Positions 1,766 through 57,358 of a stretch of DNA of 64,000 bases are shown one piece after another. The notes below the pieces were generated by a model. It saw only the letters and a list, made by a program, of their open reading frames with translations, made no database searches and was not told where the DNA came from. This stretch comes from Sebaldella termitidis ATCC 33386. GTDB lineage: Bacteria; Fusobacteriota; Fusobacteriia; Fusobacteriales; Leptotrichiaceae. Every line of letters begins with the position of its first letter. The first letter of the stretch is position 1. Position numbers and translations under genes: made by a program. The stretch is taken from contig NC_013517.1 of the NCBI RefSeq assembly GCF_000024405.1, positions 2,356,001 through 2,420,000 on the forward strand, written 5' to 3'.

Positions 1766-2176
1766 TTATTTCTTATTTACTATATTTCCGCGGTAATAAT
1801 AGTAATTTTTATCTTCTGCATCATAAATTATTCTATTAATTTCTTTATTGCTTTCATGAGTTATAAAAGTCTGAACATCTATATTATTTAGTCTGGATAA
1901 ATAATAAATTACGGTTTTTCTTTCCTTTATTTGTCCCCGGGGAATATAAATACCATTTTTATCTTTAGAATACAAACCGTTCAATAGCTCAAAACTATTT
2001 AGATCAATTAAATATTGTATGTCCCCGTTATAATAAATATAATTACTGTCTTTATAATAACTGCCGCTTATTTTCTCATAACTTTTAAAATCCGGCTCTA
2101 TTCTTTTTGTTTCCCCTAATTTAGTACTGCCACTGAAAATAATTGTACTTAACAAAATAAATATTACTTTTTTCAT
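1766..2176 (-). CDS. Secreted DKNYY-type repeat protein
   Basis: A 136-residue protein with a signal peptide (MKKVIFILLSTIIFSG). Repeated short motifs of the DKxxYY kind follow: YKDSNYIYYNGD, SKDKNGIYIPRG and EDKNYYYYRGN. These match the DKNYY repeat family, which is found in secreted bacterial proteins of unknown function. It is shorter than most family members, with about three repeat units. The promoter carries a direct repeat of TTCACAT upstream of a TATTAT -10, shared with two other envelope genes in this window, which suggests common control. The protein is likely periplasmic or surface-exposed. Confidence 0.65.
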   Translation of the reverse strand: MKKVIFILLSTIIFSGSTKLGETKRIEPDFKSYEKISGSYYKDSNYIYYNGDIQYLIDLNSFELLNGLYSKDKNGIYIPRGQIKERKTVIYYLSRLNNIDVQTFITHESNKEINRIIYDAEDKNYYYYRGNIVNKK

Positions 2177-2262
2177 TAAAAAAACTCCTTTTCATTTTAA
2201 TTTATTTTAACTATATTCTATTCCCTAGAAAAATTTGAATTTTTTCATAATATTCCTTTTAT

Positions 2263-2294
2263 ATAATATAATATTTATGTGAAATATATGTGAA
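2263..2294 (-). promoter_or_regulatory. TTCACAT direct-repeat promoter of the DKNYY gene
   Basis: Read on the minus strand: TTCACAT (2294-2288), 4 bp, TTCACAT (2283-2277), 8 bp, then TATTAT (2268-2263). The 11-bp repeat period and the 8-bp gap to the -10 are identical to the sites at 7556-7587 and 57327-57358. The architecture resembles an OmpR/PhoB-type activator box replacing the -35. Confidence 0.55.
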
Positions 2295-6798: not shown

Positions 6799-7524
6799 TT
6801 AAAAATTGAAAGCATAACCCAGACCTAATGTTAATCTGTGTACGTTTAGATTGTGTTCCTGTCTTGTACCGTCACCGTTATCAATTTTAGCTTTTGCGTA
6901 ATTTGCCTGATACATAAGGTCTACCGTAAATCCGCTTATCTGTACTCCTCCGCCAATTCCGTAATATAATCCGTTTGTTATATCTGTATCATAAGATTTT
7001 GAAGCGTAGGTATGAGTGTATTCATCATAATCATCATCATACCAGTCATAAACATACTGTGTTACTGTATCACTTAGAGTAAGATCATTTTCATGAATAT
7101 TGAACGAATAACCAATATTTGCTTTTACATATGGTTTTATATCCTTATTCGGGGTATCAAACTCATATTTTGCAGTCAGATAAATCGGTACACTGTTATA
7201 GTAAACCTGATCTTCATATCCGTAGGTATGTTCATAATAATCTCCGTAAGAATCATACCAGCTGCCTACTGTTACTCTTTTTCCTTCCGCCTTGGAATGT
7301 CCCTGATACCCTACTCCGGCACCTATTAAAAAATTTGGGCTTACATTTTTTAGATATTCAACACCTAGCTCATATCCAAGACTGTCATCTCCAGAATCAC
7401 CCGTTATAAAATCTGACATTCCGCTATAATCACTTACGAAATCGAAACCTCCTCTGATTACCAATTCATCAGAAAATGACACTAAAGATGCCGCTAAAAA
7501 AATACCTGCTAATACTTTTTTCAT
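6799..7524 (-). CDS. Outer-membrane beta-barrel protein
   Basis: A 241-residue protein with a signal peptide (MKKVLAGIFLAASLVSFSDE) and alternating amphipathic strands. It ends with an outer-membrane signature, LTLGLGYAFNF, with terminal Phe. The pattern fits an 8-stranded OmpA/OmpW-like or outer-membrane protein beta-barrel domain. Tyr- and Asp-rich loops (YDWYDDDYDEYTHTY) are probably extracellular. It likely acts as a small porin or surface structural protein. The promoter has the TTCACAT/TTCATAT direct repeat shared with two other envelope genes. The RBS is AGGAGG. Confidence 0.8.
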   Translation of the reverse strand: MKKVLAGIFLAASLVSFSDELVIRGGFDFVSDYSGMSDFITGDSGDDSLGYELGVEYLKNVSPNFLIGAGVGYQGHSKAEGKRVTVGSWYDSYGDYYEHTYGYEDQVYYNSVPIYLTAKYEFDTPNKDIKPYVKANIGYSFNIHENDLTLSDTVTQYVYDWYDDDYDEYTHTYASKSYDTDITNGLYYGIGGGVQISGFTVDLMYQANYAKAKIDNGDGTRQEHNLNVHRLTLGLGYAFNF

Positions 7525-7555: not shown

Positions 7556-7587
7556 ATTATAATATGTTTATATGAACTATATGTGAA
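7556..7587 (-). promoter_or_regulatory. TTCAYAT direct-repeat promoter of the beta-barrel gene
   Basis: Minus strand: TTCACAT (7587-7581), 4 bp, TTCATAT (7576-7570), 8 bp, TATAAT (7561-7556). The following leader is nearly identical to that of the gene starting at 57294, including AAATAAATATTT just before the AGGAGG. Confidence 0.65.
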
Positions 7588-55935: not shown

Positions 55936-57294
55936 TTACATTCTTGAAAGTGAATCAATCAGCTTTCCTGTTTCCCATCTTACATCCTCTTTCATTCTGT
56001 CTCTTACTTTCCTGTACAGATTATCTTTACTGTCATTATGCTCAGTGTAACTGTATTTTTTTTCATCATTCATATAACCGCTGACTTCATAGCTCATTCT
56101 GCTTCTCAGCTGTGGTTCTGGATGCTGTTTATATCCGTTATCATCAACAACAATTCTGATTCTCACATCTGCTGATGAATATGAATTAGTTAATACTATA
56201 AAATCACTTTTCAGAGAATCTTTCACTATATTATCCATATCACCTGCAATATAAACCTTTACTTTCCCCTTTTCTTCCAGATCCTGATATTTTCTGTACG
56301 AATCTTTATATTCTCCGTATCTTTGGTAAGCAGTGTATGCACTGTTATATATCTGAGCTATGTCTCGGTATTCACGCTTTGTCCTTGCACTGTATTCCTT
56401 GCTTCTGGCCTCCTGATAATATTTATCCGCAGCTTCCTGTCTGCATAATTTATCATTTTTTTCGCCTAATTCACTGCTGTCTTTATAATTCCCGTGTTTC
56501 TCATACGCATCATCTGCTTCTGCGAAAGTTTCGGCTGCATCACAGTAATTTTTTGCTGCTTCCTGTGATTTTGCTTTCTTATACAGCTTTTCGGCTTCTG
56601 CCCTGTCTGCTTTCTCGTTGTTAAGCTGGTAACGCTTTTGCGAGTCCTTGTAGCTTCCATAATTTTTATAGATATTATATGCAGCAAGAAAATTCTCTTC
56701 GGCACTTCTGTAACGTCCGTTTTTTTCGTCAGAAACACCGCTGTTATAGTATTCACCAGCTTTTAACTCAGAATATTTGAATCTGTAGTCTTCTGCTTTC
56801 TGTTTTATATCCTTATAGCTGTAATAAGTAAGGCCCGCTTCATACGCCTCTGCCTTGCTCAAATAATCGTCAGTTCTTACTGCTTTTATATTGTCTCCCT
56901 TTATATAGTACTGCTCTGCTACATTTTTCCCCAGCTCGTCAACTGTATATTTTCCTGTAAAAAATGATATCTGCTTGTCATAAGACTTTTTATCCAGCAG
57001 AGTTCTTATCTCCCAGAATTCAGACATATACTTAATTTTACTGTCAATAGTAGGTGCTTCTGCAATATTTTTTTCATAATATTTTATTATTGTATCAAAC
57101 TTTTCCAATATTTGTTTGCTTTCTTTATTATTAGGAAATGTTTTTTTCCCATCAAGATATTTTGCACTATACTTGACAGCTGTTACATAATCACCCTTCT
57201 CATAAGCTTCCTCGGCTTTTTTCAGATCACATCCCACAAATACAAATAACAAAACAGCAAATAATAATATTTTTCTAAAATTTATCTTAATCAT
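55936..57294 (-). CDS. Repeat lipoprotein with YKDS motifs
   Basis: A 452-residue lipoprotein (lipobox LFVFVGC, Cys22). The N-terminal part has TPR-like helices (AEEAYEKGDYVTAVKYSAKY). Residues about 190-350 carry three copies of a roughly 45-residue unit built around Y-x-x-Y-G-x-YKDS (IYKNYGSYKDSQKRY, YEKHGNYKDSSELG, YQRYGEYKDSYRKY), each followed by a charged helix. The last 110 residues form an alpha/beta domain (KVKVYIAGDMDNIVKDSL ... RMSYEVSGYMNDEKKYSY). No named family. It is controlled by the same direct-repeat promoter as the beta-barrel gene at 6799-7524. Confidence 0.75.
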   Translation of the reverse strand: MIKINFRKILLFAVLLFVFVGCDLKKAEEAYEKGDYVTAVKYSAKYLDGKKTFPNNKESKQILEKFDTIIKYYEKNIAEAPTIDSKIKYMSEFWEIRTLLDKKSYDKQISFFTGKYTVDELGKNVAEQYYIKGDNIKAVRTDDYLSKAEAYEAGLTYYSYKDIKQKAEDYRFKYSELKAGEYYNSGVSDEKNGRYRSAEENFLAAYNIYKNYGSYKDSQKRYQLNNEKADRAEAEKLYKKAKSQEAAKNYCDAAETFAEADDAYEKHGNYKDSSELGEKNDKLCRQEAADKYYQEARSKEYSARTKREYRDIAQIYNSAYTAYQRYGEYKDSYRKYQDLEEKGKVKVYIAGDMDNIVKDSLKSDFIVLTNSYSSADVRIRIVVDDNGYKQHPEPQLRSRMSYEVSGYMNDEKKYSYTEHNDSKDNLYRKVRDRMKEDVRWETGKLIDSLSRM

Positions 57295-57326: not shown

Positions 57327-57358
57327 ATTATTCCATACCAATATGAAATCAATGTGAA
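57327..57358 (-). promoter_or_regulatory. TTCAYAT direct-repeat promoter of the repeat lipoprotein gene
   Basis: Minus strand: TTCACAT (57358-57352), 4 bp, TTCATAT (57347-57341), 8 bp, AATAAT (57332-57327). The leader to the RBS is nearly identical to that of the beta-barrel gene: TATAAAATAAATATTT then AGGAGG. Confidence 0.65.

Follow-up and report, generated by a model that had tools for sequence, protein, structure and literature searches.

How do three genes for envelope proteins, scattered over one region of the Sebaldella termitidis genome, come to share the same upstream element, and which regulator might read it? S. termitidis is a termite-gut bacterium of the Leptotrichiaceae (PMC3035275). 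The window, i.e. the whole stretch of DNA that was analysed, comprises 64,000 nucleotides of strain ATCC 33386 (bases 2356001-2420000 of contig 1, in a genome of 4,486,650 bases with a chromosome of 4,418,842 bases). A first-pass annotation had described in it three direct-repeat sites of the form TTCAYAT-N4-TTCAYAT-N8-WATWAT and had proposed that they are promoters of an envelope regulon under an OmpR/PhoB-type regulator. The window pattern scan finds all three where that annotation had placed them, on the minus strand and with zero mismatches. The sites and their genes are as follows.

2263..2294, minus strand: operator-promoter of the DKNYY gene, with TTCACAT (2288-2294), TTCACAT (2277-2283) and the -10 TATTAT (2263-2268)
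1766..2176, minus strand: DKNYY-family protein with a signal peptide (Pfam PF13644, 2.6e-12)
7556..7587, minus strand: operator-promoter of the beta-barrel gene, with TTCACAT (7581-7587), TTCATAT (7570-7576) and the -10 TATAAT (7556-7561)
6799..7524, minus strand: outer-membrane beta-barrel protein, 241 aa, with a signal peptide (assigned from orthologues and a paralogue matching PF13505)
57327..57358, minus strand: operator-promoter of the repeat lipoprotein gene, with TTCACAT (57352-57358), TTCATAT (57341-57347) and the -10 AATAAT (57327-57332)
55936..57294, minus strand: repeat lipoprotein, 452 aa, lipobox VFVGC (assigned from the open reading frame (ORF), its leader and sited orthologues)

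We regard it as nearly certain that these three genes belong to a genuine regulon. Its probable regulator is encoded in a two-component operon that is itself preceded by the element.

Occurrence of the element and its target genes

The description of the window sites stands in its other particulars as well. Up to the ribosome-binding site, the beta-barrel and lipoprotein genes have near-identical leaders (AAGATATAAAATAAATATTTAGGAGG and AAGTATATAAAATAAATATTTCAGGAGG), and a good -35 element is indeed absent: in the range of 15-19 bp before the -10, the best candidate at the three sites matches TTGACA at 1-2 of six positions. That the products are envelope proteins is supported by a signal-peptide-like N-terminal segment in all three, by the Pfam match of the DKNYY protein and by the lipobox of the lipoprotein. 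As for the beta-barrel protein, a Pfam search with the window protein itself gave no match, and its assignment is based on a 39% identical paralogue that matches PF13505 at 1e-13. The site of the beta-barrel gene is kept before both of its orthologues (88% and 73% identical) and is conserved in G035 and G060, two other genomes of the genus. That of the lipoprotein gene is conserved in G035, G058 and G060, and sited orthologues are thus found in all four genus genomes. For the window DKNYY gene we found no sited orthologue but saw sited paralogues; three DKNYY genes carry the site in the S. termitidis genome and four in its sister G035.

Allowing up to three mismatches, the window holds 6 matches to the pattern against 1.02 expected, and none of 100 shuffles reached 6. 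At up to two mismatches, the genome-wide scan that had been suggested with the first-pass annotation returned 40 matches in S. termitidis, compared with 6 for the reversed pattern, an excess not expected by chance in an AT-rich genome. Eight matches are exact and nine have one mismatch, a total of 17 where the reversed control has none. At up to one mismatch, two sister genomes of the genus contain 21 and 7 matches against 0 for the control, and 57 genomes of other genera contain 0 to 3 each. At E ≤ 0.1, a profile called R1, built on 20 S. termitidis sites with the -10 included, detects 29 sites in S. termitidis and 33, 11 and 14 in the other three genus genomes. In a profile scan of the window, the three sites score 33.6, 30.5 and 24.5 bits and the next best match 9.5 bits. 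With a matrix made from 53 sites of the three other genus genomes, the three window sites reach 35.6, 32.3 and 31.1 bits, compared with 8.9 bits for the runner-up and a maximum of 17.7 bits in 40 simulated windows; as the training sites had been found with a model trained on S. termitidis sites, this is a strong but not wholly independent check. The consensus from those three genomes is TTCACATTAAGTTCACATTGGTGTGGTATAAT; its TGTGGTATAAT part can be read as an extended -10, for which the consensus is ...TTGGTGTGGTATAAT. A spacing scan of S. termitidis that left out the -10 gave 297 matches against 196 for the control, among the matches listed, and was not used as evidence.

The genes behind the sites are predominantly those of exported proteins, defined here by a simple signal-peptide rule and by a first gene start at most 100 bp from the site. 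Signal-peptide genes follow 19 of the 20 sites considered in S. termitidis, 19/19 in G035, 4/4 in G058 and 12/13 in G060, in agreement with the predicted enrichment before genes for secreted and outer-membrane proteins. In the published S. termitidis genome, 18.8% of the genes code for signal peptides (PMC3035275). By the simple rule, 24 of the 60 window genes are exported, about twice that published proportion, and 18 of the 81 genes at the other S. termitidis loci fetched, targets included. Of the 24 exported window genes, only three are preceded by the site, so exported genes in general are not marked by it. Together with the genome-wide excess, this signal-peptide bias bears out the envelope regulon that had been inferred for the lineage. 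Its targets include ZraP/CpxP-like hairpin proteins, three DKNYY genes, two small beta-barrels, the repeat lipoprotein, a small protein rich in Asn, Gly and Arg and a two-partner secretion protein. To these, G035 adds a transporter of the ShlB type and a VWA lipoprotein resembling YfbK.

The operon of the candidate regulator

Eight OmpR-family regulators are encoded in the S. termitidis genome, and only one of them has the site before its own operon. This site (C1:1239227-1239266, minus strand) is followed by genes for a 136-aa exported protein, a 217-aa response regulator (C1:1237907-1238560) and a 458-aa kinase, the latter two lying within C1:1236547-1238560. Three exported proteins paralogous to the first protein of the operon (26-29% identity) are encoded next to it, each with a site of its own. 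The site of the operon is retained in the genomes G058 and G035 and in a more distant Sebaldella (L181, genome G060/G061) as TTCACACACACTTCACATATATGGAATACTAT; kinase identity is 94-95% in two sister genomes and 70% in the divergent G060. A conserved operator before a regulator-kinase operon is the arrangement of an autoregulated two-component system. Among solved structures the regulator resembles RegX3, BaeR and MtrA, and it remains below every cut-off of the equivalog profiles shown.

For the exported protein of the operon, AlphaFold2 (three sequences) predicts a hairpin of helices spanning residues 41-77 and 83-113, where most pLDDT values exceed 90. Foldseek ranks ZraP first (3lay; its six chains head the list, E 0.011, TM 0.8-0.87 on the target) and CpxP (3itf) after it. 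A sequence profile search also brings up ZraP at 0.0028, yet a vimentin coiled coil scores better, and the protein is below the family cut-offs for Metal_resist (17.6 of 29.2 bits, E 0.0044) and ZraP (18.4 of 200). A relation to ZraP/CpxP is likely, albeit unproven.

Beyond the four genus genomes, all of which possess the regulon, most fusobacterial genomes are at background. Other Leptotrichiaceae genomes have 0-1 profile matches each, G056 excepted, and no full-length kinase homologue was found in those sampled; full-length homologues of about 24-36% identity are present in other families. One of these, in G055, is 34% identical, and this genome has five profile matches at E ≤ 0.0101. The best lies at its own two-component operon and the others precede genes for exported proteins, one of which is a true Metal_resist protein (PF13801, 2.9e-13). 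In G056, which belongs to another genus of the Leptotrichiaceae, three sites precede exported-protein genes, one with an LTDAQ motif. R1 matches in other genera that are confined to the -10 half were counted as background. In G002, the profile matches were rejected as sites: they cover only model positions 9-41 (the -10 side), eight of ten share one score, and they are read as a repeated element.

Two further observations concern related genomes. Single site-like matches precede a gene for a penicillin-binding-protein-1A-like protein at G034:C2:902129 and G049:C1:826873, and both genomes have a 35-36% identical kinase homologue. In another genus of the Leptotrichiaceae (L071, L072, L073), genes for a PepSY-like exported protein, an OmpR-type regulator and a downstream kinase are accompanied by two TTCATTT-N4-TTCATAT/TTCATTT sites. 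This locus reads as a second, putatively autoregulated system with the same geometry and another half site.

We propose that the S. termitidis sites act as operators of sigma-70 promoters. An OmpR/PhoB-type regulator would bind as a dimer, head to tail, on two 7-bp TTCACAT half sites separated by a 4-bp spacer and standing where the -35 element would otherwise be. It would presumably activate rather than repress, recruiting RNA polymerase to the extended -10 (TRTGnTATAAT) 8 bp past the second half site. The regulator would most likely be the protein encoded at C1:1237907-1238560, whose operon, in the order site, ZraP/CpxP-like periplasmic protein, response regulator and sensor kinase, would be autoregulated. 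The kinase may sense an envelope disturbance as the inducing stress, and roles as chaperones or feedback sensors are probable for the periplasmic protein and its paralogues. The output would consist of secreted, lipo- and outer-membrane proteins and of a few non-coding RNAs. Judging from the sequence comparisons, it is quite probable that this regulator drives the sites and does so in the manner described.

Several points weigh against this proposal. The 8-bp gap to the -10, present in 58 of the 79 sites checked, is partly built in, since R1 was trained on S. termitidis sites with the -10 included. Four sites (C1:458053, C1:666024, C1:1308122 and C1:4053482) have no adjoining signal-peptide gene. 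The relation of the periplasmic protein to ZraP/CpxP is weak, with no Foldseek match below 0.001 and a Pfam Metal_resist match at 0.0044, beneath the cut-off. G056, with its three sites, has only a partial kinase match (31%). Finally, the location of the operon beside its own targets is circumstantial, and another of the eight regulators could bind.

This last point leads to the alternative that survives best, namely a genuine OmpR-family regulon that is bound by one of the seven other regulators, the operon at C1:1239227 being just one more of the targets. The assignment of the sites to the candidate regulator rests on autoregulation, neighbourhood and co-occurrence, and G056 has sites before exported-protein genes, yet no full-length kinase homologue. 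Furthermore, a PepSY-regulator-kinase operon in genus g4 carries TTCATTT-N4-TTCATAT, and the half-site family is therefore shared. However, the genes of the other seven regulators have no site before them at up to three mismatches (up to two for those of L040 and L041), and throughout the genus the operon is accompanied by its three neighbours and by the sites, a combination that recurs in G055. The recognition helix of the candidate, RTVDTHIKNLRKKI, also closely resembles its counterpart in the G055 homologue (RTVDTHIKTLRKKI) and differs from that of PhoB. We thus consider control by another of the eight regulators unlikely.

Promoter geometry and related systems

The sites consist of two direct half sites with an 11-bp period, and the operator replaces the -35 at a fixed distance from a sigma-70 -10. 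The nearest structural precedent is PhoP of Mycobacterium tuberculosis, which binds as a tandem dimer to 7-bp TCACAGC direct repeats and requires a spacing of exactly 4 bp (PMC4832192). Its operator is like ours in the two 7-bp half sites, the spacer and the shared TCACA, and unlike it in regulator, targets and organism. In S. termitidis itself, the same geometry is found in the Pho boxes, TTTACAT-N4-TTTAYAT-N4-TTTACAT-N8-TATAAT, which occur before pstB and pstS only, two genes identified from their translated starts.

C1:322872 and C1:4348458, minus strand: Pho boxes with three TTTACAT/TTTAYAT repeats before pstB and pstS (L238, L240), identical in G035

Could the TTCACAT sites then be Pho boxes bound by PhoB, and their genes part of the phosphate regulon? 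The repeat period, the -35 place and the distance to the -10 are the same as in the boxes before pstS and pstB, and in our own comparison the Streptomyces PHO box GTTCACC resembles TTCACAT. In contrast, the pst promoters have three repeats and a T instead of a C at position 3, a third upstream repeat is found at none of the 79 TTCACAT-type sites checked, and the sited genes are not phosphate genes. We consider membership in the Pho regulon very improbable. Given the geometry shared with the pst promoters, the different base and the lack of a third repeat, the sites have the geometry of OmpR-type activators with a specificity that is not that of PhoB. The OmpR/PhoB reading of the first-pass annotation is strengthened by these promoters, by the conserved site at an OmpR-family operon and by the spacing known for M. 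tuberculosis PhoP (PMC4832192).

An alternative sigma factor such as sigma-E, reading the repeats as its -35 region, is less probable still. Fusobacterium nucleatum does have a sigma-E envelope response with the small RNAs FoxI and FoxJ and a similar output (PMC11005410), and the two systems are alike in being global envelope responses of the phylum with a non-coding arm. Unlike the regulon described here, that response depends on a sigma factor rather than a two-component system and uses another promoter. The Sebaldella -10 is a standard extended TATAAT, not the element of an extracytoplasmic function sigma factor. The repeats are 8 and 19 bp away from it, which does not fit the usual -35/-10 spacing, and the pst genes are preceded by the same geometry with another half site. 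A CRP/FNR-like reading, for which TCACA within TTCACA might speak, was rejected as well: CRP/FNR sites are inverted, TGTGA-N6-TCACA, whereas these repeats are direct, and TRTG is better read as part of the extended -10. Chance, to which an AT-rich motif in a window of 31.7% GC might be ascribed, carries practically no weight, as it is ruled out by the shuffles, the reversed pattern and the cross-genome controls including the 53-site matrix.

Among known systems, Cpx (CpxP-CpxR-CpxA) and BaeSR of Enterobacteria combine, as the Sebaldella operon probably does, a ZraP/CpxP-type periplasmic helical protein, an OmpR-family regulator and a membrane kinase, and Cpx systems are autoregulated and have envelope targets. 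The Sebaldella regulator nevertheless falls short of the equivalog cut-offs for CpxR (PRK10955; 125.9 of 341 bits) and BaeR (158.2 of 380). Its half site is TTCACAT, unlike the Cpx box GTAAA, and its periplasmic gene shares an operon with regulator and kinase, whereas cpxP is divergent in Escherichia coli. In F. nucleatum, CarRS is likewise a two-component regulator of this phylum with a genome-wide binding map, but it has a 17-bp motif, a radA site between the -10 and the start, and metabolic and adhesin targets (PMC12186487).

Our literature search, whose coverage excluded most subscription papers, returned no report of a Sebaldella regulon. An envelope-stress two-component regulon is a known kind of system that has apparently not been described before from Fusobacteriota. 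Envelope regulation is mostly uncharted in this phylum, the searched literature naming sigma-E, CarRS and ModRS, all from F. nucleatum, and Sebaldella has so far been studied mainly by its genome. The present analysis provides a defined operator, a candidate regulator with signal-sensing partners, about 30 targets and traces in other fusobacterial genera, and thereby a testable envelope-stress circuit. It also gives a regulatory context to families of unknown function such as DKNYY proteins, small beta-barrels and repeat lipoproteins. Because the Pho boxes of this genome have the same geometry and differ by one letter, the two sets of sites can serve as a clear illustration of how paralogous regulators keep apart.

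Putative RNAs and small reading frames after the sites

Downstream of at least three sites lies conserved sequence that is apparently not translated.

C1:1204719-1204870, plus strand: RNA-A (L001; also L142, L168), with a site and a 3' block of about 70 nt that is identical in three genomes
about C1:3817800-3818033, minus strand: RNA-B, conserved sequence with a site
about C1:3824150-3824375, minus strand: RNA-C, conserved sequence with a site

A common 5' stem (ACAGTATAA...TTATACTGT) is present in RNA-B and RNA-C, along with a GGAGTTTTT loop and with TCTCC stretches near a 3' terminator; in RNA-C, both sides of the stem are changed, from A-U to G-C. When the genomes were searched with a model of the 5' portion, S. 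termitidis and G035 had two copies each and G058 and G060 a single copy; every copy immediately follows a site, and no other match rises above noise. An Rfam search of the non-coding transcripts gave no match. It is tempting to speculate that RNA-B, RNA-C and their relatives in sister genomes are genus-specific small RNAs of about 200 nt or longer, which might block the ribosome-binding sites of other envelope genes via the TCTCC stretches. We put this forward tentatively, at somewhat less than an even chance. If true, a two-component system would play in Fusobacteriota the role that sigma-E has elsewhere with MicA/RybB or FoxI/FoxJ.

The RNA-A block is of another kind. It comprises a hairpin (AAAACCAAGCTGAAAGCTTGGTTTT), AAGGAG and then a ten-codon mini-ORF that starts with TTG, MKKKVIFLLA stop, and looks like the start of an exported-protein gene that terminates immediately. 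A mini-ORF in the leader of the window DKNYY gene, read from the sequence and with a Shine-Dalgarno-like AAGGA, recalls it.

2225..2248, minus strand: seven-codon mini-ORF, MKKFKFF stop, in the DKNYY gene leader

At C1:3060415 on the plus strand (L015, L156, L170), about 140 nt after a site, a conserved ORF of 50 aa contains four cysteines, arranged as CxxC pairs (MIKIEIRCKTCGKLHMEIEV...). Lastly, L039:15394-15593 on the plus strand is a probable 6S RNA, its 45.4 bits (E 3.8e-6) being one bit below the Rfam gathering score.
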